Below are positions 4,201-36,000 of a stretch of DNA of 36,000 nucleotides, in pieces. The notes beneath the pieces are model-generated. The model was not told the origin of the DNA. It made no database searches and saw nothing but the letters and a program-made list of their open reading frames with translations. This DNA is from a virus: positions 1 through 36,000 of the IMG/VR virus record IMGVR_UViG_3300027801_000072; one strand, written 5' to 3'. The first letter of the stretch is position 1; each line of letters begins with the position of its first letter. The translations under genes were made by a program, and so were the position numbers.

Positions 4201-4689
4201 TACAAAATATTATTCGGCACAAACGCAGACGAAAATTTACAAGCCACTTTCAAAGTTGTAAAAAATTCAAAAACAAATGTAACAGATGCAGTTGTTAAAA
4301 CAAGAGTTATTGCCGCAATCAATCAATTCTTTGCACTAGATAACTGGGATTTTGGTGATACTTTTTACTTTACAGAATTAGCCGCTTTCATACACAATGC
4401 ACTAGCACCAGACGTGCTTACAGCAGTAATTGTACCCAACCAGTCAGGACAGGGGTTTGGGTCTCTGTTCCAAATCGATTCAGCATCAGACGAAATTTTC
4501 ATCAGTGGGGCCACCGTTAATGATGTTTCAATTATTACAGCACTAGGAGCCAACCAATTGTCAGCTTCAGGTACTGTTGTAACAAACACATCAACATCCA
4601 CAGCAAGTACCACAACAGGATCAGCAGTGTCAGGCTCTACTACAACAGGTTCCAGTTCATCAACTGGCAGTAGTGGGGCTGGATACTAA
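1207..4689 (+). CDS. gp6: Baseplate wedge subunit gp6, enlarged
   Basis: This is a 1160-residue baseplate wedge protein, against 660 residues in T4 gp6. The N-terminal part (FQQADFKSYDFETLRRTMV, then YVALLDLIAYIAQALSFR) is the conserved wedge region of marine gp6 proteins. The conserved C-terminal part is at about residues 985-1085 (LKSLADQI, FFALDNWDFGDTFYFTELAA, VLTAVIVP). Between them, at about residues 520-960, is extra beta-rich sequence that accounts for the size. The last ~40 residues are almost only Ser, Thr, Gly and Ala. Known role: gp6 dimers link neighbouring wedges into the baseplate ring. The gene follows a late promoter and has no strong Shine-Dalgarno. Its stop overlaps the next ATG (TAATG). 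Confidence 0.88.
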   Translation: MATTDRQNRLLVAEDWRKIYQSFQQADFKSYDFETLRRTMVNYLKENYPDDFNDFVESSEYVALLDLIAYIAQALSFRVDLNARENFLETAERRNSILRLARLINYNAKRNQPATGLLKVNAISTTQDVRDSSGANVSNQTVIWNDSANSNYREQFTAILNAANQTGQLFGNPRESNKIGGIDTDVYTLSSNQSDLPMFNFTSSVGGVNRDFEIVPSTLEDSESIYESRPIEGTGLTYTYRSDGSGDSSNNTGFFFLFKQGKMQQETFIIDSAITNYIQSLTTPNINNNDVWLYQLDQFGQITREWTKVPSLSGNNAIYNSLAKSERNTYNVVTKANDTVDLVFGDGNFSNLPLGSFKIYYRTSDNAKYAIQPADMQNVILAVPYVDANGGQQTLSITLSLQASVYNSAATESNASIKEKAGQVYYSQNRMITAEDYQVVPLSASQEIVKVKSTNRSASGISRAKEILDPTGAYSNVSVFAEDGILYREESTQKFTFTFNNRSNIQSTLDAKVEAKLKTAYARQFYYLKYGTKDVSTLSASWNSTTTSTNTNTGYIEAGGPLVLGDFATSNLKYAKPGALVKFTSPDTRKFLNGVLVTSTTENSQDRSWAKIGAVVGDGANGGIGNLESGLGPVTLNDVLPNGAVIDSVIPNFTTAFSIELETDIIDRIEAFEEFGLRYDWDSETWKVITSTNLSASSIFGLTDQGSTTGTNADASWWFKFTNDGNTYTVTYRKLDYLFESESQNKFHFDAQEKIYDYKLGTSVKDTIKVLKTNSLVSTSNSIGYPIVWQVVDTVTETDGFQDNRKVKVGFYDNDDDGVVDNPEIFDIIVEPDLSVTTKFVFQEKYISYNNIERFKPCSSSKFIVSKNETDITLNSSTYTDGQLFYFYDSAEDVIKKYSTTTNTLSTSTDYLARRGRSSINFQYKHNAGQSTRIDPSVSNIVDIYMLERTYDNLYRIWLQDGGVLPTPSTSNQLRINYSGTLNPLKSLADQIIYHPVKYKILFGTNADENLQATFKVVKNSKTNVTDAVVKTRVIAAINQFFALDNWDFGDTFYFTELAAFIHNALAPDVLTAVIVPNQSGQGFGSLFQIDSASDEIFISGATVNDVSIITALGANQLSASGTVVTNTSTSTASTTTGSAVSGSTTTGSSSSTGSSGAGY

Positions 4690-13600: not shown

Positions 13601-16600
13601 TCCTATTGATAATCAAGTAACATATGAATATGAACTAGACGGATTAGATATTGTTCCTGGCAAACATGTTAAGGTTACAAATGCAGATACAGGTGGTTGG
13701 AAATTGTTTATGAAGACAATCACAGGTTGGATAAATGTAGGAACAGAAAACGGCACAGTTAGATTGTCAACAAAATTATACGATTACACTCAAGACGCTA
13801 CAGGTTTTGCTGGCGAAGACACATTTGATGAAAACTTCTTTGACCAAGAACCAGCAAACGAAACAAGAATGATACTTACAGCATTGAGAGATGATCTGTT
13901 TATTGGCGATCTTGCAAAAGAATACAACACATTGTTCTTTACAGGATTGAGGAAAGTATTAGCAGAACAAACTTATGTGGACTGGGTGTTCAAAACATCT
14001 TTCATAAATGTTAAAAATTCTGTTAGAGAATTAGATCAACGAAAGAGTTATGAAACAGGTACAGACGGTTGGATTGAAAGTTACATAAACGAAGTAAAAC
14101 CATTCAATACAAAATTAAGAGAATATAAATTAGGTTATACGGGAAATGATATACAAGACGGAATATTTACAGATTTTGATAATCCACCGTTGTATGATAC
14201 AACAACCAAAAAAATTAGACCACTAGATGTCAATATAGATACAGCAAAATTAAATGAATACCCATATCAGATGTGGAACGACTACCACAAAAAATATGTT
14301 GCTTCAATAATAGTAACAAAAGCTGGATCGGGGTATGAAGTTGCTCCTGAAGTCACTGTATTAGGCGGAACGGTGGGCAGTACAGGACCATTCCAATTGC
14401 AAGGAACTAGCAACAGTGGTGCAACATCAGGCAGTTATGGATATTACTATCCAATGTTTACAAGTGAAGCCCAAGCAAAAATTTATGATTCACAAAACAG
14501 CGGAAGTGGTGCTGTACACAGTCATACGTTTGATGACTTTACAGGCACGTTCTATATGCCTACTGGATCAACGAATCATGCACAGACAACTAAATCAAAC
14601 ACATTTAAAATGTATGTTGCTCCTAACACAACACCAGCAAAAGCAACAGCAATAATTCAAGGCGGAAAAGTTACAAAAATAATACTGTCAGACACAGGTG
14701 CAAATTACACAACAACACCAACAGTAGCATTAACAGGCGGACTGAAAGCTGGAGGAACACCGACTGACACAGCTAAAGCATATGCAAATCTAAATAATGA
14801 TCTTGTTAGAGATTTTGACACAACAATTAAATTTGATAGGGTATCAAGCACATCTAGAGTTAAAGATTGGAAAGCATCTACATACTTTGCATATGGAGAT
14901 TTAATTAGATACAACAATCAACTGTACAAAGCAACAAGCGCCTTTACAGCAACTACAAAGTTTGACGATAATATTGGCAATGTATATAAAGTGTACGGTA
15001 ACGAAACAGGACTAACAGCCGCAGACAGAACAAAAGGATTTTACACACCAGGCGCAGGCATGCCAGGCAACGAATTGTCACAAGTAATGACAGGTGTTGA
15101 TTACGGTGGCACAATGGTTACAGGATTATTATTCTCACAAGAAGCAGGGTGGGACAAAGCAGGTTGGTATGATTTCCCATTTGATAATTATGGTGTATCT
15201 AGAGTAAAAGCATTTACGGCAGACGGTTCAACCACTGCTTATACTTTTGCTACTGCACCTGCAACAACAGAAGTATATCAAGTTTATATAACACACGGAG
15301 ATAGCACAAGAAGAAAACTTTCAGATGTAATCAGAGGTGACGGTAATACAGTTACTTTTAATATTAGTGAAACAGCAGGTTCAAATGCATTGGTAGAGTT
15401 TATACCATTTGATGATGATCAAGTATTAACACCGACTGATGATAGAACATTAGACTCGATTGTTAAAGGTGGATTATTTACATCAGCACTTGGTCATGCA
15501 CCAAGTGATATTTTATTAGAAGGTGATGATTTTATATCACCAGATACAAGTTACGCACCGGAAGAAACTGTTCCAGGACAAATGTTTGACACAGTGGACA
15601 TTAAAGTTTACACGTCTCCAGAATCTGGAGTACCATTTATAAGTGAAAACAATTATATAGGTGATGGAACGACAACAACGTTTGCAATTGGAGATTATCC
15701 AGGAACACTTGGATCAGTGACTGTAAGTGTTGATGGTGTGGTTAAAAAACTTACAACTGACTATACAGTAAACATAACAAACAAAACAATTACATTTGGA
15801 TCAGCACCAGCAGATTTAAGCAAAGTATCTACGAAAATGTTTGCAATCAGTGGAGAGAATTACAGAGTATTGGATCAATACACAGGGGATGGAAGCACAG
15901 TAACATACACAACTTCGACTAGTGATGATTTCTCATTTGATTCAACAGCATCTGAAATTTACATCACAATAGACGGTGTACCTACAACTGCTTTTACAAC
16001 AAGCAGTGTTAGAAAAAGATTAGAAGTAACATTTAGTTCTGCTCCGGCGGCAGACGCATTCATACAAGTTGCAGGATTTGCCAAAACAGCAACCAGCACA
16101 CGAAGTTATGCAAGTGTTAGAAATCAAGAAGTAACATATGCCAGTGGAACAAATAGGTACACATTAACATATCCGTCAGGATCAATTGGACCATTCTCAG
16201 GTTTAACGACAATTGAAGTTAACGGTAGAGTGTTAAGAGGACCGGACAACACTTACTATGTTGGTGACGGAAGCACATACACTTACGGGGTAGTATCAGG
16301 TCTAGGTGATGACTCAACCGTTGATCCTGCAAAAAATATTACAAATGCAAACCAAGTTCAGGTGTTTGTGAATGGTGTACAAAAATTACTCAACACAGAC
16401 TACACAGTGGACATAGGAAATCAAAATGTTGACTTTGTTACAAGTCCAACATCGACAGACGTAATTTGTATTTCAACACTAGTTGACAATCATTACTATA
16501 ACGAAGGTACAGATATCATATTAATTCCAAGTGCTATAACATCGCCATACTCGATCAGCAACGGTGATAAACTTTCAGTTACAACATTTAACAATGCACT

Positions 16601-17504
16601 TGGCATGAAACACAGAAGAGAAGTATTAGAGGGTAGAACAAACGGCATATTCAAATTGAGATTTGATCCACTAAATTCTACATACACTTATGTTTGGTTA
16701 AACGGAGAACAGCTAATACAAAACAGTGATTACACATTAAGTGGCAACACAGTAACAGTTTTTGGCAAAACAATAACATCATCGGACAGATTGGATATTA
16801 TGTATTTTGCTTTAGAATCAGCGACAGGAGCCACAGGATTTAGAATTTTCAAAGATATGTTGAATAGAACATTCTACAAACGTATCAATAAAAATGCAAC
16901 AACAGAATTAACACAAGATTTAATTGATGGATCTAGAACTATCACAGTAAAAGACGGAAGTATAATGCCTACACCAGATATATCAACCAATCAACCAGGT
17001 GTAATCTTTATAGACAAAGAAAGAATAGAATATTTTACCAAGACAACTAACGTATTAGGACAAATTAAACGTGGAACTCTTGGAACAGGAATTAAGGTAC
17101 ATGGATCAGGCGCCGAAGTGGTAGATGCGTCAGGTACTCAAACCATACCTTATGCGGACACAGTACACACCAACACCTTCACAGGTGACGGCAGTACAAC
17201 AGTGTTTGCACTATCACAAACCCCAGCCTCTGCTAGTGAGTTAGACATATTCATTGGTGGCCAACGATTGTTGCTTACTAGCGAGGACGGATCAACTATT
17301 AACTACTCTGTGGACGGATCTAGCACAACAGTGACTTTAAGCACTGTACCGGCTGACGGAACACAGGTTAAAATCTTACACAAGAAAGGACAGGTTTGGT
17401 ATAATGGCAAAGATGGTAATCCAGCGGATGGTAAAGGATTACAAGCGTCTACGACTCAACAGGCTAGATTCATAGCTGACGAGCCAACAAATGCACCTGA
17501 ATAA
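4689..17504 (+). CDS. Giant multidomain baseplate/tail structural protein
   Basis: One uninterrupted frame encodes 4271 residues, about a third of the window. The start ATG overlaps the gp6 stop by one base. Visible domains in order: an N-terminal conserved region (~1-190); a cupredoxin-like domain (~195-290) with H221, C274, H277 and M280; two GDYT-type beta repeats (~690-770 and ~915-990); a YWTANTDYKIGDSI carbohydrate-binding-like module (~1658-1697); seven FG-GAP repeats (~2098-2540) forming a probable beta-propeller; a Trp-rich region (~2615-2900); a second WKASTYFAYGD module (~3391-3435); and at least five GDGST-type beta repeats to the C-terminus. It occupies the T4 gp7 position, so a wedge-attached structural role with receptor-contacting parts is inferred. 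No membrane segment or catalytic triad was recognised. Confidence 0.8.
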   Translation: MADREINALTNSEVVKQGKNEYRRTVQHLPAFYRTDANQRFLSSTLDPLVQKGSLERLDGFVGRQDAKTRKNIDRYVSATSRDRMAYQLEPAVTYTDRDTTSLNPEDQVKFTGTYDDYINQIKFLGGNVDNHDRLSKETVYSWNPAIDYDKLINYREYYWMPNGPSAISLDSVGPNTVAEYSVKNLATGAYNFTHRENENNPILSLYRGNTYKFNVDAKGHPLWIMTEPYKNKVGADGSTSTIYSTGVTNNGTDYGTVTFTVPATGPSTLYYQCGNHDAMYGILQIKNVTSTAKIKPQDDIVGVKNYSLRTLDLSNGMKIKFDDGIVDAEYKGKQYYVEGVGESITLTNIDDLITPGPYAEESTILYDSVGYDTRPYAKSSYTPKDKDYIIIKRDSRDQNAWSRYNRWFHKSVIEETSRVSGYTPVLNEDDRAKRPIIEFDSGLELYNHGKVAKKSITLYDTVTTDAFSTVVKQSGYIIDGLAVVDGMRIVFANDTDPLVNGVIYDVAFVTAGDSTQVIALTKATDGTPTADDSIFVEYGTAHQGKTLYYNTTTKRWAEAQQKTTLNQPPLFNLFDETLTSLDDTVKYPSSTFAGAKVFSFATSDSAVTDTVLGMKVKYSTINNVGNIVFDSDYTSDSFTYKIDNDSISKRLASGHLHYTNLTSKQNYLGPYVKRTSQSKQRVIRTFTVDSTETQLFPIDFYKNSSSLTDLEISVAVNGVRKTITTDYTLANGTTNRYVKFNKKLKVDDQIRIAGYSSANKIIDKGIYEVPDSLSTNCENESLGTFTYGQIMNHVQDIFDKNQDITGQIPGTSNLRDKPDARLTGGTILQHEGSLLPAVFGLIDQESNLISAIDYATLEYEKWYSAFLTHSIGTAYEGVARDRVDEIIASITQGRTSSFPFYYEDMVGWGNNVSTRTHTVAGASQTEYAIDSQFDITALSNRAVYIYLNDELLILGADYTFSKVDDSIDVTRTLAEGDKIVIKDYSDTKGSYLPPSPSKLGMYPTYKPEIISDDTYITTTSMIRRHDGSFIKAYGDERDDLIIELERRIYNNIKTSYDSSMIKLDDVMPSIFTATDYTLNEINDVMSTDFHIWAGRNNVQYINNTTFSEGSPFTYNYANSTDRIKKEKLPGYWRGIYNYFYDTDAPHVRPWEMLGHSEKPSTWDATYGTAPYTAGNDVLWTAIATKSGRYGKPDIKNYLPVDASGNLLDPIAAGLIDVLAIPGRRAGWKVGDQSPAETAWRKSPAYPFTVIKTLALTQPGRFFSNMFDPSRQTTNIGGNQIDKETKVRRIFKTAKYHLQTSTNNASGVTTTYLTAGYQPLVVNYLISKNINTDTFYYKKMTNLKTQLAYKLGGFTDKDNLKILTDSVSPGSASGSKFIPDENYKILFRTSNPVHSFNYSGVLIEKNTEVSRDGSTILGGFRVLGYSTSKPYFKFNYPVKTSIGNKLSVEGSQEVVSYNDYKETVQTIPYGYVFDTVQEIADFLLGYGTYLEQQGFKFNKYSNEIKETLNWQNAVREFLFWTTQEWAPGSAITVSPAAQGFEIDTENSIVGKLQNLAGDYSLLDAGGRKIPIRQVSTKRIGKTFDLEIKDENTGLYNIVLSTVQKEHVLLFDNKTVFADIIHEPTTGFRQARLKVVGWKTAGWNGDYYAPGFMFDSAQVTYWTANTDYKIGDSIEYQGKFYVAKVNHGSGSLFDTANWVLKSQKPAPQLIPNFDYKISQFNDFYDLESNNFDESQQKLAQKLIGYQSRDYLDNLFVNDISQYKFYQGYIREKGTQNAIDRLLKAKYEGQDISLDLYPEWMLKTGNFGNVDSIENIQIRLLDDVVTANPNSFELFDTSNETVEYARSDAVAKDNMYYKPVDYTASTTFSRLDYSKEGTSRDHAQVYKTAGYPQLSQVHHTAFDVIDLLKLDMEAVEPGQLIWVANKLNNDWDVFRLTNQPYKISQLKRINEATQLEITFSEPHGLSAGTTTSRADYFGITNAKTENLNGVYEVFSVLDHKTIVIDFALNTPFSESVSDNSTADSYGNVYKFISVRLPSIDNVNDILKYSDYQDRNSAVGYTGDRVFTDADSSGLWRVYEKQDPYTTSIQLSPDTLTADQHFGQQIVARNDGRTVVVSSPGKAQGTVNFLFRREATAGSTFETQSTLTTTAGSDVTTKLGESLSMSTDENFVVAGGPYANSLGSDGSTVFADAGLIKIFLWNPSTFKYGTLTTLLPPTDAASQNFGWAHKITESGVDSVRSTTQKYLFVSAPGHSTNKGRVYVYTWGVGADGSTYDRWTKDYTLEAPAGGSGQRFGHRLQANDNGDVLAVSSLAPGNAGKVEIFVRSGSDGSSANTFTLAQTLTGVTADGSTANTAFGDALAMSKDGNTLIISAPGVDKSDQADAGAIYYYKWNADGSTNTYTLQQTINAPDLQVNMKFGTTLAINPAGTRVVIGAESFASPRQMNFDIGGTTFDLQDTSFIDSNIQSGGAYTATMYNTKFIVDDRLMTDNVTAMDDFGRGVCAIDNAVFVGAPQDDGNVTSDGSTRITNDGTVTVFDLTENNKYAWKDIVTEEALIDISKVGQVFEFDNRSKEIRDHYDLYDPIKGRILGIADREINIKTTWDPAIYNTGDNANTKTPWGEEHIGEVWWDLSKVKWIWYEQGSQEYKVNNWGKTFPGSSIDIYEWTESILTPTEYNIQSNTLSGGTVLDESKYTVQQRYNSTLDTFVNYYYYWVKDVTTIPANSVVKRNNSISFTANLIRDPKNFGLKYYSITDTNKFVLNNVSNLTNGDIILSVDIRSNTFEGDSHSVWKLAREGDPDYRPSTQIEGHWWDSLIGQNTAGDKVPDLDLPLNQRYGNNIRPRQGWYVNRFEALKEIIDYANTVLKKYQLVGQINLINLDSKEPEPTAQSLEWDATVDTYAELTYVNTADLSGTVRYLVHADETSNNFWAIYTWDGTVWSRTKLQTYNTSNYWSYTDWYGTDPAIHEMVHSENTPIDNQVTYEYELDGLDIVPGKHVKVTNADTGGWKLFMKTITGWINVGTENGTVRLSTKLYDYTQDATGFAGEDTFDENFFDQEPANETRMILTALRDDLFIGDLAKEYNTLFFTGLRKVLAEQTYVDWVFKTSFINVKNSVRELDQRKSYETGTDGWIESYINEVKPFNTKLREYKLGYTGNDIQDGIFTDFDNPPLYDTTTKKIRPLDVNIDTAKLNEYPYQMWNDYHKKYVASIIVTKAGSGYEVAPEVTVLGGTVGSTGPFQLQGTSNSGATSGSYGYYYPMFTSEAQAKIYDSQNSGSGAVHSHTFDDFTGTFYMPTGSTNHAQTTKSNTFKMYVAPNTTPAKATAIIQGGKVTKIILSDTGANYTTTPTVALTGGLKAGGTPTDTAKAYANLNNDLVRDFDTTIKFDRVSSTSRVKDWKASTYFAYGDLIRYNNQLYKATSAFTATTKFDDNIGNVYKVYGNETGLTAADRTKGFYTPGAGMPGNELSQVMTGVDYGGTMVTGLLFSQEAGWDKAGWYDFPFDNYGVSRVKAFTADGSTTAYTFATAPATTEVYQVYITHGDSTRRKLSDVIRGDGNTVTFNISETAGSNALVEFIPFDDDQVLTPTDDRTLDSIVKGGLFTSALGHAPSDILLEGDDFISPDTSYAPEETVPGQMFDTVDIKVYTSPESGVPFISENNYIGDGTTTTFAIGDYPGTLGSVTVSVDGVVKKLTTDYTVNITNKTITFGSAPADLSKVSTKMFAISGENYRVLDQYTGDGSTVTYTTSTSDDFSFDSTASEIYITIDGVPTTAFTTSSVRKRLEVTFSSAPAADAFIQVAGFAKTATSTRSYASVRNQEVTYASGTNRYTLTYPSGSIGPFSGLTTIEVNGRVLRGPDNTYYVGDGSTYTYGVVSGLGDDSTVDPAKNITNANQVQVFVNGVQKLLNTDYTVDIGNQNVDFVTSPTSTDVICISTLVDNHYYNEGTDIILIPSAITSPYSISNGDKLSVTTFNNALGMKHRREVLEGRTNGIFKLRFDPLNSTYTYVWLNGEQLIQNSDYTLSGNTVTVFGKTITSSDRLDIMYFALESATGATGFRIFKDMLNRTFYKRINKNATTELTQDLIDGSRTITVKDGSIMPTPDISTNQPGVIFIDKERIEYFTKTTNVLGQIKRGTLGTGIKVHGSGAEVVDASGTQTIPYADTVHTNTFTGDGSTTVFALSQTPASASELDIFIGGQRLLLTSEDGSTINYSVDGSSTTVTLSTVPADGTQVKILHKKGQVWYNGKDGNPADGKGLQASTTQQARFIADEPTNAPE

Positions 17505-26098: not shown

Positions 26099-27070
26099 AT
26101 GGCATATACAGCAGGCGCAACAATATTAGATGACGAATACAACGCATTCGTTAACAACAGTTCAAGTCCTTTCGGATACAATCACTTTGCAGGAACAGGG
26201 TCTGCACAGTACGGATTAGGACAATCAGCAATTTCAACAGTTTCAGCGGGTGGTACAGTAAATGCATCACAGTGGAACGCACTAATGACAGGAATCACTA
26301 ACGTCGCAAATCACACTAACGATACAATGACTTCTAGATCAGCAGTTTCATCAGGTGACACAGTAGCTATTTTGTCGGCGGTTGCCTCAGACTTGGCAAC
26401 ACTAGCGGCTTCGGTTGCAGGTGGTTCGACAAGTGCAACAGCACTTACAACTTCAAGTGCAAAACAAACTTCAGATTCAAGTTCAACGTGGACAGGCGCA
26501 CACACAGTAGAACACTCAGTAACTTTTTCAGACGCAAACAAAATGAGACACTTTTTTAACGCAGGTGGAAAAATTAGAGTTGCAAAATCAAGAACAGGTA
26601 ACGGCGCAACAGGCGGTGGAGCAACTACTAAAGACTCCAACTGGACTAACTTGTATGCGGCACTAGGTAACATTGACATAGCATCACAGGCTTCAACAAG
26701 ATCAGGATCAGGCGAAACATTAACAACAAATGGTTTAGCAAATGGGTTCCATGATCTAGGCACAGGTTACACACACCTTATTAGATTAACAGAAGCAACA
26801 TCACCATACACTGCTAACTACATCGACGTTCATGTTAAATTGAATGCATCAGTTGGTTCAGCTACGATAATGACTGTTAAGACGACAGCAAATGACGGTG
26901 CGGCAGATGACACTTACACAAGTGGTAACACTTCAAGTGTAGATGCAACTCCGGACAGAAATGGAACACACAGAGCCCAAATATTTGTTACAAGTGTAAC
27001 AAATGCACAGGGTTTAAGTTCAGCGATTGTTGAAAGTTCAACTGCGGTTGTGTCTAACTCGACATCATAA
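26099..27070 (+). CDS. Virion structural protein, fibre or adhesin candidate
   Basis: This 323-residue protein is rich in Ser, Thr, Ala and Gly with few charges, like other tail-surface proteins here. It starts MAYTAGATILDDEYNAFVNN, then a GQSAIST...GGTVNASQWNALMTG segment similar to the start of marine phage structural proteins of unknown function. The middle contains SDANKMRHFFNAGGKIRVAKSR, and the C-terminus is a beta-rich TANYIDVHVKLNA...IMTVKT region. AGGAG at 26083-26087 lies 11 bases before the ATG. It is the last gene of the structural region before a non-coding gap. I cannot name a specific family. Confidence 0.6.
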   Translation: MAYTAGATILDDEYNAFVNNSSSPFGYNHFAGTGSAQYGLGQSAISTVSAGGTVNASQWNALMTGITNVANHTNDTMTSRSAVSSGDTVAILSAVASDLATLAASVAGGSTSATALTTSSAKQTSDSSSTWTGAHTVEHSVTFSDANKMRHFFNAGGKIRVAKSRTGNGATGGGATTKDSNWTNLYAALGNIDIASQASTRSGSGETLTTNGLANGFHDLGTGYTHLIRLTEATSPYTANYIDVHVKLNASVGSATIMTVKTTANDGAADDTYTSGNTSSVDATPDRNGTHRAQIFVTSVTNAQGLSSAIVESSTAVVSNSTS

Positions 27071-27132: not shown

Positions 27133-27444
27133 ATGAATGCAGGCGAACTAAAACAAAAAGCAGATCTATCTTATGATATTTCAGTTGCAAAAAAGAACGC
27201 ACTGGAAAGATCAGAATCGAGACAGATAATTGCACACAACGAGCATCTATTCAAAGCAGATGCCCAAACAATCTGTTTGGTAAAAACTTTAAGCGAACAC
27301 AAGGACACATTTTTTGTGCTGGACACAAACAACAATCCTTGCGAGATTAAAGATCCAACGGAATTTCTTAACAAATTACTAGAGAGAAATCAAGAAACAC
27401 TGAACGCCTACAGTCAGATACACGAAACTTTTAAAAGGAGATAG
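27133..27444 (+). CDS. Small hypothetical protein (103 aa), first gene of the modification cluster
   Basis: The product starts MNAGELKQKADLSYDISVAK and is highly charged and mostly helical. One beta-like stretch (TFFVLDTNNNPCEI) precedes a C-terminal helix (EFLNKLLERNQETLNAY). It contains two cysteines. I do not recognise a family. It is preceded by a possible promoter and followed after one base by a glycosyltransferase-like gene, whose ribosome binding site lies in this gene's last codons. It could be a chaperone, adaptor or peptide substrate of the enzymes downstream, but nothing in the sequence decides this. Confidence 0.6.
   Translation: MNAGELKQKADLSYDISVAKKNALERSESRQIIAHNEHLFKADAQTICLVKTLSEHKDTFFVLDTNNNPCEIKDPTEFLNKLLERNQETLNAYSQIHETFKRR
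27434..27440 (+). promoter_or_regulatory. Ribosome binding site (AAAAGGAG region)
   Basis: AAAGGAG at 27434-27440 is five bases before ATG 27446. Strong sites like this recur before most genes of the 27446-32835 cluster and support the starts chosen there. Confidence 0.6.
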
Positions 27445-27445
27445 T

Positions 27446-28195
27446 ATGTCTACAGGTGTGTTGTTGTATTGTTCAAATACCCCTACCTACGACTATCATC
27501 GAATTGCAGAACGTTGTGTTGAACTAATCAAAAAGAATCTCAAGTTAGAAATCACCATAGTAACAGATGCAGAAACTTTTAAAAAGTTTAAGCCCTTGGG
27601 AATGATCAATTACAAGTTGATAGAACCAGAACTGGGCAATAAAAGGAATAAAGAGCAGTGGAATCAACTAGAAAGATGTTACGCATATGAGCATTCTCCC
27701 TATGATACTACAATTCTTATGGACTGTGATTATTTTTGCTACACAGATAACTTATTAACCTACACAAACATTGATAATGATTTTCTAATACATGATAAAA
27801 TTCATGACCTCACAGGCAAGGATGTATATAATTTCAGACAAGATTCAATAATACCTATGCTATGGGCAACAGTGATAGTGTTTAAAAAGACACATAGAGC
27901 AAAACGTATATTTGATATGGTCAAATATATCAAACAGCATTATCAATATTTTTGTAAACTTTATAGAATAAGTTTTCCTAACTTCAGAAATGATTATGCC
28001 TTTAGTATGGCAATGAACCAAGTCAACGGAAACACACAGCAAACATTTTTGCCTGGCAAGATACCCACATTGCCTGCACTTGCAAAAATACTTGAAGTAA
28101 AAGACACAGGTATTGTGTTTGAATATGATGACAAAATAAATGAAATAGAGAATCAAGATGTACATTTAATCAGCAAGGAGATATTCAATGTCTAA
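27446..28195 (+). CDS. GT-A-like glycosyltransferase candidate 1
   Basis: A 249-residue protein with a Rossmann-like start (TGVLLYCSNTPTYDYHRIAE), a nucleotide-sugar type strand (LEITIVTDAE) and a DxD motif, D93-C94-D95 in ILMDCDYFCY, at the usual position after the fourth strand. DxD binds the metal and sugar-nucleotide phosphates in GT-A enzymes. RNDYAFSMAM near residue 190 resembles the acceptor-side acidic segment of such enzymes. The length fits small phage glycosyltransferases. Donor and acceptor are unknown. It overlaps the next gene by 8 bases and shares fold features with it. Confidence 0.65.
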   Translation: MSTGVLLYCSNTPTYDYHRIAERCVELIKKNLKLEITIVTDAETFKKFKPLGMINYKLIEPELGNKRNKEQWNQLERCYAYEHSPYDTTILMDCDYFCYTDNLLTYTNIDNDFLIHDKIHDLTGKDVYNFRQDSIIPMLWATVIVFKKTHRAKRIFDMVKYIKQHYQYFCKLYRISFPNFRNDYAFSMAMNQVNGNTQQTFLPGKIPTLPALAKILEVKDTGIVFEYDDKINEIENQDVHLISKEIFNV

Positions 28196-28979
28196 AGGAT
28201 TTCTTTGGTTTGCACAGAACAATGATACAACAGATTATGTTAAATGTAGCATAGCACTTGCAAAATCTATCAAACAACACAACAAAGAAAATGCAATCTG
28301 TGTTGTAACAGATGAGAAAAGTAAATTTGAGAGTGAGTATGTGGATGTTGTTAAAGTTATGCACACAGACGAAAGTGCAGAACACAAAATTAAATGGGCA
28401 AATGAATATAAAGCATTTCAATTGTCTCCGTTTACACACACAATAAAATTAGAAAGTGATATGCTGTGGACAGCAAATACAGATTGGTGGTGGAATTATC
28501 TGTGGCAACACGATTTAGTTTTTGCTGTGGACTGTAAAGATTACAAAGACAATAATATTAAAAATATATCTTATAGAAAACTATTCATCAGAAATAATTT
28601 GCCCAACCTTTATAATGGTCTAAGTTATTTTCGAAGAAGCACACATGCACAAGAGTTCTTTAAACTATGCGAAGAAATAACATTAAACTGGAAAGAAGTA
28701 AAAGAAACAATGTTGGTTGCTTGTCATGATGAATACCCAAGCACAGATGTCGTGTATGCACTTGCATATAGAATAATGGACCCAACACAACAGCAATTGA
28801 TCAATTATCCGTGGTTTAAATTTGTACACAACAAACCAGACATACAAGGTAGAACAACAGAATACTTGTCGCCATTTAAAATTAATGAAAAGATTATAGT
28901 TGGAAGCCAACGAATGCACAGAGTTTGGCACTACTTGGACAAAACTATACCGGAGGACCTAGATGCCAGGATTTTTTGA
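28188..28979 (+). CDS. GT-A-like glycosyltransferase candidate 2
   Basis: This 263-residue protein is similar in layout to the previous gene: a start like KGFLWFAQNNDTTDYVKCSI, ICVVTDEKS as the nucleotide-binding strand, and an IKLESDMLW segment with E89-S90-D91 where the DxD normally sits. The first Asp is thus replaced by Glu, a change seen in some GT-A families. YPSTDVVYALA and a C-terminal MHRVWHYLDK histidine pair complete the pattern. AAGGAG at 28175-28180 lies seven bases before ATG 28188. It is probably a glycosyltransferase; activity is less certain than for its neighbours because of the altered motif. Confidence 0.58.
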   Translation: MSKGFLWFAQNNDTTDYVKCSIALAKSIKQHNKENAICVVTDEKSKFESEYVDVVKVMHTDESAEHKIKWANEYKAFQLSPFTHTIKLESDMLWTANTDWWWNYLWQHDLVFAVDCKDYKDNNIKNISYRKLFIRNNLPNLYNGLSYFRRSTHAQEFFKLCEEITLNWKEVKETMLVACHDEYPSTDVVYALAYRIMDPTQQQLINYPWFKFVHNKPDIQGRTTEYLSPFKINEKIIVGSQRMHRVWHYLDKTIPEDLDARIF

Positions 28980-29268
28980 GGCAATGAAAAACCTAGAACC
29001 TATCAAAGAGAAGGTTCACACAGTGACCATAGCAGGTCAAAGTATGGTTGTAACACTGGAAAAGAAATTAGAAGTAATGCGTAATGGAGAAGATGCTTAC
29101 AAATGGAAGTCAGCAACAGAGTTTGTTTTGAAACCAAAACCCAAAGTTGGCATTGTGTATCCGCAACTACGAAAAGCAGACAAAGGTTATAATTTTTATG
29201 ACAACGATCCATATTATCCCAAAGACATAGTAGAGGAAGGCTTTGCATGGCAAATAGATACAGAATAA
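28963..29268 (+). CDS. Small hypothetical protein (101 aa)
   Basis: It starts 17 bases inside the previous gene, with GGAGG at 28952-28956 six bases before the ATG, and overlaps the next gene by 22 bases. The N-terminal half (VHTVTIAGQSMVVTLEKKL) looks like a small beta domain. The C-terminal half is Lys, Pro and Tyr-rich (KPKPKVGIVYPQLRK, then YNFYDNDPYYPKD). No family is recognised. Its place between two glycosyltransferase-like genes suggests a partner or substrate, which is inference. Confidence 0.6.
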   Translation: MPGFFEAMKNLEPIKEKVHTVTIAGQSMVVTLEKKLEVMRNGEDAYKWKSATEFVLKPKPKVGIVYPQLRKADKGYNFYDNDPYYPKDIVEEGFAWQIDTE

Positions 29269-30146
29269 GTGATTTAGATTTTGTGTACATCAGCTACATG
29301 GAACCCAATAAAGAAGAGAATTGGGCTAACCTCAAGAACAAGGTACCATGGGCAAAACGTGTTGACGGTGTAAAAGGATTTGATTCAGCACACAAGGCCG
29401 CGGCAGAAACAGCAGAAACAGATTTCTTTATTAGTGTGGACGGTGATAATATTATTGATGAAACGTTCTTACTACAAACACTAGACTTTGAAAAAACAGA
29501 TAGAAAAGCAGTACACAGATGGAGAGCAAAAAACAGTATCAACGGCCTTGTTTATGGCAATGGCGGTTTAGTTGGGTGGGACAAAGAAACTTGCCTCAAC
29601 ATGCACACACACGAAAACGCCAAAGACAAAAAAGCAGAGATAGATTTTTGTTGGACAGTAAAACATGAAAACCTGCACAACTGTTATTCCACAAGTGTGA
29701 TAAACAGTGAACCTTTCCAAGCCTGGATAGCAGGATATAGGGAAGGTGTTAAAATGAGTTTGAACCAAGGCGAACACATCAAGCCAGAAGATTTTATGAA
29801 AACCATATGGGGACCAAATTTAAGAATTCTCAGCACGTGGATGACTGTGGGTGCTGACATACACAATGGCAAGTATGCCATGTTGGGTGCAAGAATGGGT
29901 TGCTATGCCACAACGATAGATACCAAAGAATGGATACAGGTCAGAGACTTAGACAAAATGGTAGACCTATATGAGAATGCTGTGATACCTAAAAAAATTG
30001 ATGAGGATTTAAAACTGTATGGTGAGAGCATAAGACAGAGAATTGATTTACCCGTGGCAGAATTAGACGAGAGTCAAAGTAAATTTATGAAATTTATATA
30101 TCCACCACACAAGAATACAGGAGTGCAAGATCGTGAGTACAAGTGA
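29247..30146 (+). CDS. GT-A-like glycosyltransferase candidate 3
   Basis: A 299-residue protein starting MANRYRISDLDFVYISYMEP. The GT-A pattern includes VPWAKRVDGVKGFDSAHKAAAE, a family-2-like donor segment, and ISVDGDNIIDE with D65-G66-D67 as the DxD motif. It further contains GLVYGNGGLVGWDKE, a Gly-rich strand often seen near the acceptor site. It is longer than the other two candidates and looks like a separate subfamily. GAGGAAGG at 29233-29240 precedes the ATG. The acceptor is unknown; nearby Ser/Thr-rich virion proteins are possible targets. The stop overlaps the first radical SAM gene by 14 bases. Confidence 0.68.
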   Translation: MANRYRISDLDFVYISYMEPNKEENWANLKNKVPWAKRVDGVKGFDSAHKAAAETAETDFFISVDGDNIIDETFLLQTLDFEKTDRKAVHRWRAKNSINGLVYGNGGLVGWDKETCLNMHTHENAKDKKAEIDFCWTVKHENLHNCYSTSVINSEPFQAWIAGYREGVKMSLNQGEHIKPEDFMKTIWGPNLRILSTWMTVGADIHNGKYAMLGARMGCYATTIDTKEWIQVRDLDKMVDLYENAVIPKKIDEDLKLYGESIRQRIDLPVAELDESQSKFMKFIYPPHKNTGVQDREYK

Positions 30147-31509
30147 TTATAAATCAGATGCATTAGAAGCCAGAGAAAAATTGGACAGCGTTTCGCCTAC
30201 CATGTGTCTGGCCAAATGGAACCAAACATCTTTACACTTGCCCACAGGACTAACAAACAGTTGCTATCACCCGCCACTGCATCAGATAGATCCTACTAAA
30301 CTTGCGGATAATCCTGCGGCACTGCACAACACCGCAGAGAAACTAGAACAAAGATCACAAATGCTCAAAGGCGTGCGACCCGAGGGTTGCTCATATTGCT
30401 GGAAGCTAGAGGACACTGGAGAAATGTCAGACAGACAGTACAGATCCGGTGAACCATGGGCCATGCAAGACTTTGAAACAATACGACAGAATCCAATGGA
30501 CGAACGTTGGACACCCAGGTATGTGGAAGTTAATTTTAACAACGCTTGTAATTTCAAGTGTAGTTACTGTTCGCCGCAGTTTTCCACTGCTTGGGGCAAA
30601 GAAACGGACAGGTATGGGGCATATCCCACAACTACTCCGCACAATGCTCCTGAACACTTTCAGGGTAGAAGACGTCCAATACCCAACAGAGAAGAAAATC
30701 CTTATGTTACTGCTTTTTGGAAGTGGTGGCCTACTCTGTACAAGAACTTGAAACACTTCCGTATGACAGGCGGAGAACCTATGATGGATGTTAACACATA
30801 CAAAGTATTCCAATACATAATGGACCACCCCAAAAAAGACCTACATCTAAACGTAACCAGCAATATGTGTCCTCCAGACAAAAAACTAAAAGCCAAGTAT
30901 TACAACATGGCACAGAATATATGCATGGAAGAGAAAGTGGAACACATGATGCAGTTTGTTTCAGTGGATGCGTGGGGCAAACGAGCAGAGTATATACGTA
31001 ATGGATTAGACTTTAACTATATGATGGACAATGTGGAAGAATTCTTAGAGCGTATTCCTGTGCGGAATTCAATAACGTTCATATGCACATACAACAATTT
31101 AAGCATAACAAGTATGGACAAGCTGTTAGAGAAGATACTGGAACTGCGTACCAAATACAGCACAACCTATCAGAGGGTATGGTTTGACGTACCGCTTTTA
31201 AGACAACCTGCATGGCAACAGATCACAATGCTACCAGAGTCATACCAAGACATACACAAGGACAACATTAAATACATGCAGGACAATTCCGGAGAGGATA
31301 ACGGGCTACACATATTCAAAGACTTCGAAATTCAAAAAATGCAACGCAATCTAGCTTACTGGCAAAAAAACGCAGACGCAAGTAAGCAAAATAAAAAAGA
31401 TTTTTACGCATTTTTTAACGAACACGATCGAAGACGTACTACTAGATTTTTAAACACATTTCCCGAGATGGAAGAATTTTGGGTGGAGTGCAAAAACGCA
31501 AATGAATGA
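30133..31509 (+). CDS. Radical SAM protein 1, N-terminal cysteine motif
   Basis: A 458-residue enzyme with a GTG start at 30133, supported by AGGAG at 30119-30123. The radical SAM cluster motif is C139-x3-C143-x2-C146 (NNACNFKCSYC), and GGEP at 213-216 is the SAM-binding motif. Before the core is a second cysteine set: PTMCLAKW, SCYHP and EGCSYCWKLED. Such cysteines usually sit after the core in SPASM/twitch enzymes; here they come first. Homolysis of SAM to a 5'-deoxyadenosyl radical is expected. The substrate is unknown, and peptide or sugar modification are both possible. It is closest in layout to the next gene. Confidence 0.85.
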   Translation: MSTSDYKSDALEAREKLDSVSPTMCLAKWNQTSLHLPTGLTNSCYHPPLHQIDPTKLADNPAALHNTAEKLEQRSQMLKGVRPEGCSYCWKLEDTGEMSDRQYRSGEPWAMQDFETIRQNPMDERWTPRYVEVNFNNACNFKCSYCSPQFSTAWGKETDRYGAYPTTTPHNAPEHFQGRRRPIPNREENPYVTAFWKWWPTLYKNLKHFRMTGGEPMMDVNTYKVFQYIMDHPKKDLHLNVTSNMCPPDKKLKAKYYNMAQNICMEEKVEHMMQFVSVDAWGKRAEYIRNGLDFNYMMDNVEEFLERIPVRNSITFICTYNNLSITSMDKLLEKILELRTKYSTTYQRVWFDVPLLRQPAWQQITMLPESYQDIHKDNIKYMQDNSGEDNGLHIFKDFEIQKMQRNLAYWQKNADASKQNKKDFYAFFNEHDRRRTTRFLNTFPEMEEFWVECKNANE

Positions 31510-32845
31510 TTTAGAATATAAAAAACAAATACTGGATCCAAAGAGTGCAAGTTTCTGCGGAGCCAAATGGTATAATGCGACTATATGGTTAGGTAGTGGA
31601 ATGACCACAAGTTGTCATCACCCACTTCCGCATAAGATAGATCTAGAAGCAATAAAAACAAATCCAAGTGCAATACACAACACAGTACAGAAGAAAGCAG
31701 AACGTAAACAAATGCAGTGCGGAGATAGACCCAAAGGCTGTGAGTACTGTTGGAAGATAGAAGATATTAACAGAGACAATATTAGTGATAGGGTTTACAA
31801 ATCAAAGATATTTACAAATGAAGCATTAGACTATGCACACAAAACTGATCCTAACACAGACGTAAATCTTAAAACATTAGAAATAGCATTTGATAGGACT
31901 TGTAACTTTGCTTGTACATATTGTAATCCTGCATTTAGTTCTACATGGGCAAACAACATTAAAAGGCAAGGACCATACACAGACATGGTAACTGACGGAC
32001 GTAATCACTTTACTCACAGTCATGAAAGTGCAGAGCCATACAAAAAAGATGAAACAAATCCTTACGTTGAAGCATTCTACAAATGGTGGGAAACAGACCT
32101 ACACAAAAGTTTAGATGAATTAAGAATAACAGGCGGAGAACCTATGATGTCACCTAATTTATGGAGACTACTAGATTGGATAGAAACACAGGGAGACAAA
32201 ATGAATCCCGATATGCGTATTGCAATTAACTCTAATTTGGGTGCAAAGCAGAGTATTATTGATAGATTTAAAACAAAACTTAAAGGATTTAAAAACTTTC
32301 ATCTGTATACCAGCATGGAAGCAACACACAAACAAGGAGAATACATCAGAGACGGATTAGATTACGGCGAATGGTTCTCAAATTTCTTACATATGATGGT
32401 TGATAAAGTACCATCAGAGATTCACAATATGTGTACTATAAATGCATTGTGTTTAGAGTCGTTGCCCGAACTTTTAGAGAAGATAGTATGGTTCAAGAGT
32501 GCCAGTAAAGTTTATGGACCAAAGGTTAACTTCACATTGAATATATTACGGTTTCCGAGCTTCCAATCACCGCTTGTACTACCCGACGACCTAAGAAATA
32601 AATTTAAGGGTGACTTGGTAAAGTTTTTAAATAGTAATGAGAAACATTTAGAACACATGGAAGTAAATCAAACACAACGATTAATTGACTATCTAGATGT
32701 TGTTAAAACACCACACGCAGGTGCGGCCGAACAGAGTAAACTACAAAAAGACTTTAAAGCATTTTACAGTCAATACGACAAACGTTCAGGAAAAGACTTT
32801 GCAAAGACTTTTCCAATAATAGGAGAATGGTACAATGGCATATGA
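31502..32845 (+). CDS. Radical SAM protein 2, paralogue of protein 1
   Basis: A 447-residue protein with an 8-base overlap with the previous gene. The cluster motif is C134-x3-C138-x2-C141 (RTCNFACTYC) and GGEP starts at residue 211. The N-terminal set is FCGAKW, TSCHHP and KGCEYCWKIED, the same single-Cys-plus-His form as in protein 1 and unlike proteins 3-5. The two share further segments (NPYVxAFxKWW, YIRDGLDY) and the end KxFPxxxE, so they look like a duplicated pair. The separate specificity of the copies is unknown. Confidence 0.85.
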   Translation: MNDLEYKKQILDPKSASFCGAKWYNATIWLGSGMTTSCHHPLPHKIDLEAIKTNPSAIHNTVQKKAERKQMQCGDRPKGCEYCWKIEDINRDNISDRVYKSKIFTNEALDYAHKTDPNTDVNLKTLEIAFDRTCNFACTYCNPAFSSTWANNIKRQGPYTDMVTDGRNHFTHSHESAEPYKKDETNPYVEAFYKWWETDLHKSLDELRITGGEPMMSPNLWRLLDWIETQGDKMNPDMRIAINSNLGAKQSIIDRFKTKLKGFKNFHLYTSMEATHKQGEYIRDGLDYGEWFSNFLHMMVDKVPSEIHNMCTINALCLESLPELLEKIVWFKSASKVYGPKVNFTLNILRFPSFQSPLVLPDDLRNKFKGDLVKFLNSNEKHLEHMEVNQTQRLIDYLDVVKTPHAGAAEQSKLQKDFKAFYSQYDKRSGKDFAKTFPIIGEWYNGI

Positions 32846-34127
32846 GTATGGGGCTAAAGAGCCTGAGAAACTAAAGATCAAAGACATGACTCCTAGAGAA
32901 AAAGAGTTGTTGATAGAAAGTGATAACTTTTGTATGTTACCATGGATGCACCTTCATGCATTTCCAGATGGTAGAGCATACCCTTGTTGTTTCGCACTAG
33001 ATAAACTCCATGTTGGGAACGTAAACGAACAATCGATGGAAGAAGTATTCAATGGTCCTAAGATGAAGCAGATGCGTTTGAACATGTTAGCCAATAAGAA
33101 ATCCAGAGAATGTGCAAAATGCTATGATCAAGAAGATTCAGGATTCTTTTCACTGCGTCTAAGTTCAAACAAACACTTTGGACACAACATAAGCATGACA
33201 GAGAACACAAAACCAGACGGCACAGCAGACTTTATAATAAAGTATTGGGATATACGTTTTTCAAACCTATGTAACATGGCTTGTAGAAGTTGCGGTACTT
33301 GGTTCAGTTCAAATTGGTATGAAGACCACAAGAAACTTACAGGAGCTCCACCTAATCATGCAAAGATTATGAAAGCAGGCAGAAGCGGCAATGACATATG
33401 GGATCAATTACTAGAACAGTTTGATCATGTGGAACAGTTTTACTTTGCAGGCGGTGAACCGATTATTATGGAAGAGCACTTAAGGATCTTAAAAGAATTA
33501 GACAAACGTAAAATGTATCATGTGAGATTGATTTACAACACAAACTTCAGTAAATCTCATTTTAAAGGCACAGATATATTTGAATTATGGAACAAATTTG
33601 ATTCAGTATCAATTGGTGCAAGTTTAGATGCAGAAGGACCTAGAGCAGAACTTATGCGTAAAGGTACTGTATGGGAAGAAACAGTAGCAAACAGAAAACG
33701 AATGTTGGAAGTTTGTCCACAGGTAGACTTTTATATTTCTGCAACAGTTGGATTATCGAATTGCTTACACGTTTTAGACTTCCATAAAAGTTGGGTAGAA
33801 AAAGGATTTATTAAACCTCAAGACTTTAACTTTAATCTATTACAGTACCCGATGTGGCAACGTATGGATTTACTACCACAGAATGAAAAAGAAAAAGTTA
33901 CTGCAAAATATAAAGAACATATAGAATGGTTAAAATCACAGGATCACTTAACAAGAGCATCTAAAGGATTCGAATCTGCACTAGACTGGATGAACAAAAA
34001 AGATATGACTCGTCATTTGCCAACGTTTGTGGGAGAAACAAGAAAGTACGATAAAATTAGAGATGAGAATTTTACTGATGTATTCCCCGAATGGAAAGAA
34101 TTATTTGCACAGTATGAAAAGAATTAA
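32835..34127 (+). CDS. Radical SAM protein 3, SPASM-like CC motif at N-terminus
   Basis: A 430-residue protein starting 11 bases inside the previous gene, with AGGAG at 32821-32825. The core motif is C146-x3-C150-x2-C153 (NLCNMACRSC), and AGGEP follows at ~206. The N-terminal region reads FCMLPWMHLHAFPDGRAYPC with a second Cys next, then HVGNVNEQSMEEVFNGPKM and ECAKCYDQE. This copies the usual SPASM sequence order (C...PC C...GN...W/F...C..C) but placed before the core. SPASM domains bind auxiliary Fe-S clusters and often mark enzymes that modify peptides. The substrate is unknown. Confidence 0.87.
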   Translation: MAYEYGAKEPEKLKIKDMTPREKELLIESDNFCMLPWMHLHAFPDGRAYPCCFALDKLHVGNVNEQSMEEVFNGPKMKQMRLNMLANKKSRECAKCYDQEDSGFFSLRLSSNKHFGHNISMTENTKPDGTADFIIKYWDIRFSNLCNMACRSCGTWFSSNWYEDHKKLTGAPPNHAKIMKAGRSGNDIWDQLLEQFDHVEQFYFAGGEPIIMEEHLRILKELDKRKMYHVRLIYNTNFSKSHFKGTDIFELWNKFDSVSIGASLDAEGPRAELMRKGTVWEETVANRKRMLEVCPQVDFYISATVGLSNCLHVLDFHKSWVEKGFIKPQDFNFNLLQYPMWQRMDLLPQNEKEKVTAKYKEHIEWLKSQDHLTRASKGFESALDWMNKKDMTRHLPTFVGETRKYDKIRDENFTDVFPEWKELFAQYEKN

Positions 34128-35397
34128 GCCCAGCGAAGGTAACAAAACATTCTGTATGGCGCCATGGACGCACACATACCTTTCACCTCAAACAGAAAGA
34201 CGTATGTGTTGTGCATCCAGAGAGCCTGCACAAAGTTTCAAGCAATACATAGACACAGGCAATGATGCTAAGGAATATAAACCACTAACACTGAAAGAAC
34301 ACTGGAATTCAGAGCATATGAAATCTGTTAGACTGCGTATGATGGCAGGGGAAGAACTATCAGAATGTGAAGTGTGTGATCACAAACTGTTAAACACTGA
34401 TGTATATAGATCATATTGGAATCAGCTGTTCAAAGACAGGGTAAACGAAGCATACGAAAGCACAGATGAGACCGGTGCAACCACAATGCAAACTATCAGT
34501 TTTGATTATAGGTTCAACAATCTATGCAACTTTAAATGTAGAATGTGTGGTGACATGTTGAGTAGTAGTTGGGAAGCAGAATCTAGGAAAAACAAAACAT
34601 GGACTAAAGAATCACAACCATGGATGGCGTCACCGTTAAGAGAACAGATCATAAAGTTTCAAGACACACAGGTTGTACAAGAGTTTGTTGAAGCAGTAGA
34701 AACAAAAAGAATAAAAGAAATATATTGGTGCGGTGGAGAACCGTTGATGTGGGATATGCATTGGAAAGCCATGCAGAGGATAATAGAATTAGGATTTGCA
34801 AAAGAAGTGTATGTGAGATACAACACAAATTTAAGTAGAACATCATTTAAAGGAACTAAACTGTTTGATTTACTGCCACAGTTTCAAGACTGGCAGATAT
34901 GTTCATCACTGGACGGTACAGGAGAAGTTGGAGAGTATATCAGAGACGGATTAAACTATGAACAATGGTTACGTAATTTCAAAGAGGGAATGGCAGTTGC
35001 AAAAACATCTAGGGAGATGAGATTAGATTACACAATAACAATGCCTGGATTATTAGAACTTAAAAATATGTTTAATTTAAGCAGGGAGTTAGACACGGAG
35101 ATACTAACAAAAGTTATGTTTACTTTTAGCAATGATGAGATTTTAAGTCCATTAGCACTGCCTAAAGAATTACTACACACCATCATTGACGAAGCACTAG
35201 CATACATGGAACCTCTTGCTACACGAAAACAGAGAGCATTACTCGACGTAATAAAGAACTTAAAAAACAGAGAAACCTTTACGCCAACTAAAAAAGGAAA
35301 ACAAAGACAAGAAAGTATTGATAAGATTAGACGACAGGATATAACAAAAATATTAAGCAGAGATGAAAGGGTGTTAGACTGGTGGACAAGTATATAG
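34114..35397 (+). CDS. Radical SAM protein 4, SPASM-like CC motif at N-terminus
   Basis: I use ATG 34114, giving 427 residues, because it places the N-terminal motif (FCMAPWTHTYLSP, then MCC) at the same distance from the start as in the neighbours. An earlier in-frame ATG at 34027 would overlap the previous gene by 101 bases. The core motif is C138-x3-C142-x2-C145 (NLCNFKCRMC), and GGEP follows at ~207. HWNSEHMKSVRLRMMAGEE and ECEVCDHK complete the N-terminal set. The C-terminus is Lys/Arg-rich. It ends inside the start of the next gene, a 16-base overlap. Confidence 0.85.
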   Translation: MKRIKPSEGNKTFCMAPWTHTYLSPQTERRMCCASREPAQSFKQYIDTGNDAKEYKPLTLKEHWNSEHMKSVRLRMMAGEELSECEVCDHKLLNTDVYRSYWNQLFKDRVNEAYESTDETGATTMQTISFDYRFNNLCNFKCRMCGDMLSSSWEAESRKNKTWTKESQPWMASPLREQIIKFQDTQVVQEFVEAVETKRIKEIYWCGGEPLMWDMHWKAMQRIIELGFAKEVYVRYNTNLSRTSFKGTKLFDLLPQFQDWQICSSLDGTGEVGEYIRDGLNYEQWLRNFKEGMAVAKTSREMRLDYTITMPGLLELKNMFNLSRELDTEILTKVMFTFSNDEILSPLALPKELLHTIIDEALAYMEPLATRKQRALLDVIKNLKNRETFTPTKKGKQRQESIDKIRRQDITKILSRDERVLDWWTSI

Positions 35398-36000
35398 ATT
35401 CAAACATATGCCCATTACCGTGGAATCATTTAGAAGTTGACGTAAATGGTGGTGCATCTCCTTGCTGTCTGTACAAGGGTAGTATTCCAGGTGTTAAAGT
35501 GTATGAACAAAGTTTAAAATCTATACAACAAACAGAGTATATGGAACTTCTGAGAAAGAAGTTTAGAAATGGTGAACGTCCAAAAGGATGTCAGAGCTGT
35601 TGGCAAGAAGAAGATGCAGGCAAAACATCTAAAAGGCAAAACTCAATTTACAAAATGCGTAGCAGTTTAGAAAACTGGACACCTAATAGCGAGCCAACAC
35701 TAAAGTTTATAGACTTTAAGTTGGGCAACGTATGTAATCTCAAATGTAGAATATGCGGATCGTGGAGTTCCTCAAAATGGGCCCAGGAAGAAATAGATTA
35801 TGAAACAGCCAAAGGTGGGGATAACCCTATTGCTAGAAAACAATTAAAAGAAGGCGGATGGCCTAAAAAGAACCCACAATTTTTCGAGGATCTAAAAGAA
35901 GATTTAAAATATGTGGAGTACTTTGAATTCACAGGCGGAGAACCGTTCATGATCAAGGATCACTTTAAAATACTGATGCACTGCGTTGAAAAAGGATACG
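35382..36000 (+). CDS. Radical SAM protein 5, 3' end outside window
   Basis: The frame opens after a TGA at 35364 and runs to the window edge. GTG 35382 is the only standard start before the first motif, as at 30133. The N-terminus has NICPLPWNHLEVDVNGGASP then CC, KGCQSCWQEED, and the core C118-x3-C122-x2-C125 (NVCNLKCRIC), with TGGEP at ~185. It is clearly a fifth family member with the CC form. About 206 residues are visible, roughly half of the expected length. Whether more members follow cannot be seen here. Confidence 0.82.
   Translation, partial: MDKYIDSNICPLPWNHLEVDVNGGASPCCLYKGSIPGVKVYEQSLKSIQQTEYMELLRKKFRNGERPKGCQSCWQEEDAGKTSKRQNSIYKMRSSLENWTPNSEPTLKFIDFKLGNVCNLKCRICGSWSSSKWAQEEIDYETAKGGDNPIARKQLKEGGWPKKNPQFFEDLKEDLKYVEYFEFTGGEPFMIKDHFKILMHCVEKGY

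Follow-up and report, generated by a model that had tools for sequence, protein, structure and literature searches.

An ordered array of five radical SAM genes beside glycosyltransferase-like genes in a myovirus late operon

What would a phage do with five radical SAM genes in a row? The question is raised by a 36,000-nt (36 kb) stretch of DNA from an uncultivated aquatic phage, here called the window (virus record IMGVR_UViG_3300027801_000072, positions 1–36,000), in which the genes follow one another on the plus strand as R1 (30133–31509, GTG start), R2 (31502–32845), R3 (32835–34127), R4 (34114–35397) and R5 (35382 to past the window edge at 36000). Dozens of related phages keep the genes in the same order, beside putative glycosyltransferases and a fibre-like gene, so the array probably makes an unusual sugar decoration.

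Five genes of one radical SAM family

All five frames are intact, each with one CxxxCxxC and one GGEP motif, and neighbours overlap by 8 (R1/R2), 11 (R2/R3), 14 (R3/R4) and 16 bases (R4/R5), hence the adjacent, overlapping frames and motifs noted in a sequence-only reading of the window were borne out. That reading also had the array running past the window edge, which is true of R5, but no further radical SAM gene follows. In contig L001, which is near-identical to the window (R1 100% identical), the complete R5 encodes 392 aa (L001:15250–16428) and the next gene is SGNH-like; other genes, among them a cupin, come after it, and there is no sixth radical SAM gene. An array of more than five members was therefore ruled out.

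The five proteins all exceed the curated whole-protein cut-off (170 bits) of the NCBIfam family NF033640 (twitch domain-containing radical SAM protein, N_Twi_rSAM), far above chance, with 323 bits for R1, 299 for R2, 406 for R3, 319 for R4 and 202 for the half of R5 inside the window. Pfam alone gave weak radical SAM scores; PF13186 (SPASM) was found at the N-terminus of R3, R4 and R5, while R1 and R2 carry the cysteines without a Pfam SPASM match. The putative ligands of the auxiliary cluster are Cys 25, 44, 86 and 89 in R1, Cys 19, 38, 80 and 83 in R2, Cys 33, 51/52, 93 and 96 in R3, Cys 14, 32/33, 85 and 88 in R4, and Cys 10, 28/29, 70 and 73 in R5. The CxxxCxxC motif itself reads CNFKCSYC in R1 (30547–30570), CNFACTYC in R2 (31901–31924), CNMACRSC in R3 (33270–33293), CNFKCRMC in R4 (34525–34548) and CNLKCRIC in R5 (35733–35756). 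Loss of the ligands in homologues was looked for and did not occur: CxxxCxxC is kept in 258 of 258 non-identical full-length orthologues and GGEP in 257, and the four N-terminal cysteines are conserved in every class from R1 to R5. As the cluster ligands are universal, degenerate copies were ruled out. R1–R5 are predicted radical SAM enzymes which, judging by family and ligands, would cleave SAM.

Among solved structures, BtrN (2-deoxy-scyllo-inosamine dehydrogenase, PDB 4m7s/4m7t) was the only confident sequence match to the twitch domain (E 5e-7), with its four cysteines aligned. BtrN oxidises an aminocyclitol, and shares with the phage proteins a homologous twitch auxiliary-cluster domain and a radical SAM core. 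The domain is C-terminal in BtrN (residues 165–237 of 269), however, and N-terminal in R1–R5 (around residues 30–100). The phage enzymes may thus work like BtrN, yet with this different domain order they are not members of the BtrN-like dehydrogenases. Whole-model comparison pointed elsewhere: the AlphaFold model of R3 (pLDDT 91.3) gave anSME, CteB and viperin as best Foldseek matches. The radical SAM/SPASM peptide and protein modifiers anSME, CteB and SuiB were among the best matches to this model (E 5e-7 to 1e-4), but with low TM-scores (0.33–0.39) and a different domain order; the phage loci have no visible precursor peptide, and two single-sequence queries found no PqqD-like gene in them. 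SPASM and twitch domains are commonest in peptide modifiers.

Conservation and order of the array

When viral contigs were scanned with R1, 80 loci were recovered, 52 of them long enough for gene order to be counted; records carry 3–12 family members each. The order R1-R2-R3-R4-R5 was found exactly in 45 of the 52; in the other seven every class is present, together with a member that has been inserted or swapped. Nothing separates R2 from R3 or R4 from R5 in any of the 52 loci; insertions separate R1 from R2 in 32 (SGNH-like genes in those inspected) and R3 from R4 in 10 (alternative oxidase PF01786 in those inspected). The array is a real unit, kept in dozens of related phages, and the conserved co-occurrence that the sequence-only reading had seen as a mark of a system was found in place of scattered single copies. 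The conserved order and overlaps also fit coupled translation and joint work, as had been proposed. So dense an array next to tail genes had been called unusual, but dense radical SAM sets have precedents in marine phages (PMC5332604, PMC7029224), and loci of up to 17 kb with 1–8 members of the family were common in a metagenomic scan seeded with members from Vibrio phages.

The five classes differ from one another by ~70–80%, and in a tree that also included further members from viruses and bacteria they group across divergent phages, with high support for R2 and R5 and weak support for R1, R3 and R4; recent tandem duplication was ruled out on these two grounds. R1–R5 are thus paralogues that diverged long ago, and purifying selection on them is strong, with dN/dS of ~0.02–0.16 between relatives where dS is unsaturated. 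In close relatives R2, R4 and R5 mostly show 84–97% identity, compared with ~50–76% for the neighbouring glycosyltransferase and fibre genes (g3 reached 90% in one). R4 occurs in two types (~84–97% or 52–58% identity) which do not track the other genes, hence single array members appear to have been exchanged. That five distinct radical SAM enzymes are kept in order under strong selection implies a complex product of value to the phage.

Some loci carry further redox or Fe-S genes. Between R1 and R2, one contig encodes a radical SAM protein of another type together with a 2OG-oxygenase-like gene (L011:12560–13591), and between R3 and R4 another encodes a phage alternative oxidase (PF01786, E 4e-78; L005:12227–12838, also L021 and L033). 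The alternative oxidase was rejected as a general partner, being present in only three of 35 array records, as was IscU, found in none of the 35. With an A-type carrier in four of 13 records and PaaD/SufT-like proteins in three of 35, support for Fe-S assembly is occasional. One such PaaD/SufT-like gene lies directly 5' of R1 (L065:9320–9652), in the same island as an acyl carrier protein (L065:6014–6310).

The surrounding operon and relatives elsewhere

The array sits in a myovirus late operon, at the 3' end of the tail-fibre operon. The sequence-only reading placed it next to tail genes, but the genes directly upstream (27446–30146) are glycosyltransferase-like, the nearest virion-like gene being g4. 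Further upstream in the window are gp25- and gp6-like baseplate genes, a 4271-aa protein and fibre-like proteins; the nearest isolates for the gp6-like protein are large phages, e.g., Sinorhizobium phage Phosso and Agrobacterium phage Atu_ph07, at ~35% identity. The 4271-aa ORF (4689–17504), with FG-GAP and a carbohydrate-binding module (CBM_5_12), occupies the place of VrlC in pelagimyophages and is a candidate VrlC. Two accessory genes on the plus strand of the same operon encode an Asp/Asn beta-hydroxylase-like protein (PF05118, 22595–23263; its cluster in 26 loci) and a short-chain dehydrogenase-like protein (PF00106, 23235–23816; its cluster in 27 loci).

A constant cassette of plus-strand genes precedes R1. 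It begins with g4 (26099–27070), a tail-fibre-like protein of 323 aa with a conserved FNAGG motif, no cysteine and 28.8% Ser+Thr, the highest content measured in the window; g4 had no PHROG or Pfam match. Next come g5 (27133–27444), a conserved 103-aa protein with no assigned function, and two GT8-like genes, g1a (27446–28195), a predicted glycosyltransferase with a DxD motif whose family profile matched glycogenin weakly (E 0.04), and g1b (28188–28979, phrog_1903). The small gene g7 (28963–29268; 101 aa, no assigned function) is present in 61 loci. The last gene, g3 (29247–30146; 299 aa), overlaps R1 by 14 bases and has a VDGDN motif and a predicted GT-A fold. Its AlphaFold model (pLDDT 92.5) gave ppGalNAc-T2, HddC, RmlT, SunS and TarP as best Foldseek matches at low TM-scores (~0.3), and a sequence search against solved structures returned nothing useful, hence the fold rests on prediction. 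The GT8-like and GT-A assignments are likewise predictions from fold and weak profiles.

The gene g4 lies at the same place in 76 of 81 loci. A search with g3 recovered 65 more distant loci with the same glycosyltransferase core, g4 being in place in 59. Of these, 42 bear radical SAM genes 3' of g3, from one to six or more, and 23 have none; the latter usually have a further glycosyltransferase-like gene instead, after which the operon ends in the loci inspected. The core g4-g5-GT-GT-GT-A was found in 38 of 43 radical SAM-bearing and 21 of 22 radical SAM-free distant loci. As the core persists without radical SAM genes, it is the more widespread part and the array an accessory extension.

Downstream, a carbamoyltransferase (PF02543) was detected in 34 of 35 array records compared with one of 17 array-less records, a contrast softened by the array-less records being mostly short fragments, although three of 67–109 kb still have no PF02543. 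It lies 1.2–4.6 kb from R5 in the 25 records measured. Homologues of PF02543 carbamoylate sugars or sugar-like natural products. Other island neighbours include SGNH-like proteins (some DUF6071), DegT, an NDP-sugar epimerase, a UDP-sugar dehydrogenase, NeuB, a cytidylyltransferase, methyltransferases including FkbM, and Asp/Asn hydroxylases.

Relatives are rare among isolates. In 50,697 isolate phage records the family matched only Vibrio phages K566 and K567 and one single-cell virus contig; R1, g3 and g4 had no match in these records, and R3 and R5 had weak matches only. K566 has four family members, two above and two below the NF033640 cut-off, in an island with GT8-like genes 0304 and 0309, a GT4-like gene 0307 and a tail-fibre-like gene 0311 (the last three assigned partly by eye), a PagP-annotated gene, and a glycosyltransferase matching a lipopolysaccharide galactosyltransferase model. 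The published account regards this island as acquired, names a glycosyltransferase and a lipid A gene in it, and makes no mention of radical SAM (PMC12028318). The single-cell virus contig, AG-345-D19, has one family-like protein beside what appear by eye to be a carbamoyltransferase, two SGNH proteins, a sulfotransferase and an amidinotransferase.

The family also has many relatives across bacteria. Bdellovibrionota carry several paralogues each and have relatives of R2, R3 and R4 at 43–46% identity. Clusters of 3–5 members occur there, including relatives of R1, R2, R3 and R4 (L228:7375–11230, L164:3182–8765, L192:8734–16139). Some bacterial relatives lie in O-antigen-like or polysaccharide clusters, others between housekeeping genes without glycosyltransferases. 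PqqD-like genes near bacterial N-twitch radical SAM genes (L354:4389–4751, L168:13862–14164) hint at peptide substrates there, and the Elusimicrobia MAG bin-0981 (L169, L172, L174) has head-to-tail fusions of TPR and N-twitch radical SAM domains on several contigs. The phage cassette was also found on MAG contigs assigned to Pelagibacter (L161), Verrucomicrobia (L162) and Rickettsiales (L236), which were rejected as hosts because these contigs are probably binned phage DNA.

Possible products of the array

The sequence-only reading proposed virion proteins or a small peptide as the target. A glycan or glycosylated virion protein is pointed to first, rather than a small peptide, because the context is one of glycosyltransferases, carbamoyltransferase and nucleotide-sugar enzymes. 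We judge it about evenly balanced that the array supplies the radical chemistry in a line of phage enzymes that tailor a glycan, its conserved paralogues being translated together and working in order or jointly. From the BtrN match and the sugar-enzyme context, glycan or glycopeptide tailoring is our preferred reading, with a virion protein (g4 or a fibre) or the host surface as the putative target. The GT8-like and GT-A proteins would attach sugars, most likely to the Ser/Thr-rich g4 just upstream, or to a fibre. Each radical SAM enzyme would generate a 5'-deoxyadenosyl radical at CxxxCxxC, and the BtrN-like N-terminal auxiliary cluster may help to oxidise, epimerise or rework one position of the sugar unit or glycopeptide. 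The linked carbamoyltransferase, SGNH-like and nucleotide-sugar enzymes would finish the decoration, which could act in receptor binding or shielding at the virion or host surface. Counting against this are the peptide-modifying matches of the R3 model, the bacterial relatives beside PqqD-like genes or without glycosyltransferases, the occurrence of the core without radical SAM genes, and the predicted folds and weak profiles behind the glycosyltransferase calls. A wider but doubtful proposal is that the virions of large, uncultivated aquatic myoviruses bear a radical-tailored, carbamoylated glycan (or glycopeptide) of a new class, made by an ordered five-enzyme line of permuted BtrN-like enzymes partly shared with Bdellovibrionota.

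Direct protein modification without sugars is a serious rival, if on balance an unlikely one. Here, the radical SAM enzymes would alter side chains or the backbone of a fibre protein, for example g4, by epimerisation, crosslinking or oxidation, and the glycosyltransferases would act on the same protein independently. The position of the array 3' of g4 and the fibre genes, the Asp/Asn hydroxylase in the same operon, the protein- and peptide-modifying SPASM enzymes among the top R3-model matches, and the presence of g4 in nearly every locus are all consistent with this. However, 21 of 22 array-less loci still have g4, so it does not need the array; it diverges freely (38–59% identity) where R2, R4 and R5 keep 84–97% in most close relatives, it has no cysteine for thioether chemistry, and the near-obligate carbamoyltransferase linkage points to sugars. 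The sugars might instead be placed on the host, with the island altering lipopolysaccharide or capsule to block superinfection and the radical SAM enzymes making the altered sugars, which we consider improbable. This would agree with the view taken of GT8 genes in the passages on pelagimyophage host-recognition islands (PMC7029224), with the PagP-annotated gene and lipopolysaccharide-type glycosyltransferase of K566, and with the O-antigen-like clusters of some bacterial relatives. Yet the glycosyltransferase core is syntenic with the fibre-like gene in many divergent phages, within the late tail operon, and it stays while host glycans vary between hosts. Least probable by far is a RiPP-like pathway in which the array matures a small phage peptide, even though radical SAM/SPASM enzymes typically modify peptides, the small conserved genes g5 and g7 are close by, and PqqD-like genes accompany some bacterial relatives. 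The gene g5 is also present in array-less phages and g7 is absent or replaced in several loci, so neither is array-specific; no precursor-peptide gene is visible in the packed operon, which leaves no room for another, and a weak search with two single-sequence queries found no PqqD-like gene in the phage loci.

The preferred glycan reading, if true, would extend the means by which phages are known to decorate their particles or hosts to radical chemistry, provide a function for the large unassigned family NF033640, and offer enzymes with new sugar or protein chemistry. Phages rich in oxygen-sensitive radical enzymes abound in aquatic metagenomes, yet have few isolate matches; with K566 and K567, Vibrio phages in culture, the question can be tested directly. 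We found no description in the open-access literature of the five enzymes as an ordered array, of the linkage to a carbamoyltransferase, of the BtrN-like domain, or of K566/K567 as a test system. Within that literature, and as far as we found, the single family, ordered five-class array, constant glycosyltransferase cassette and carbamoyltransferase linkage are new, as are the permuted BtrN-like domain, the exchange of array members, the Bdellovibrionota relatives and a cultured phage for tests.

The closest published precedents are TARA_ERS488813_N000010, a T4-like metagenomic genome listed with 12 radical SAM genes (Nishimura 2017, PMC5332604), and the radical SAM cassettes and GT8 genes of pelagimyophage host-recognition islands (Zaragoza-Solas 2020, PMC7029224). 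These too combine tail fibres, GT8 genes and radical SAM cassettes in a myovirus genome or island, but in the passages concerned both accounts give counts and cassettes in passing and describe neither an ordered array nor a family, a carbamoyltransferase linkage or a mechanism. Mycobacteriophage glycosyltransferases glycosylate virions, the targets being capsid and tail tube (Freeman 2023, as cited in PMC12619734); the glycans are likewise on phage virion proteins, but radical SAM involvement is not described in the part of that source dealing with them. The K566/K567 island (VPK566_0302-0314) shares four family proteins beside GT8-like, GT4-like and tail-fibre-like genes, although its members have only ~20–26% identity to those of the window and gene order and strands differ. 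Finally, all five proteins share with NF033640 an N-terminal twitch domain followed by a radical SAM core; that family is defined by sequence without an assigned function, whereas the phage set described here consists of five fixed paralogues in an ordered, overlapping array.
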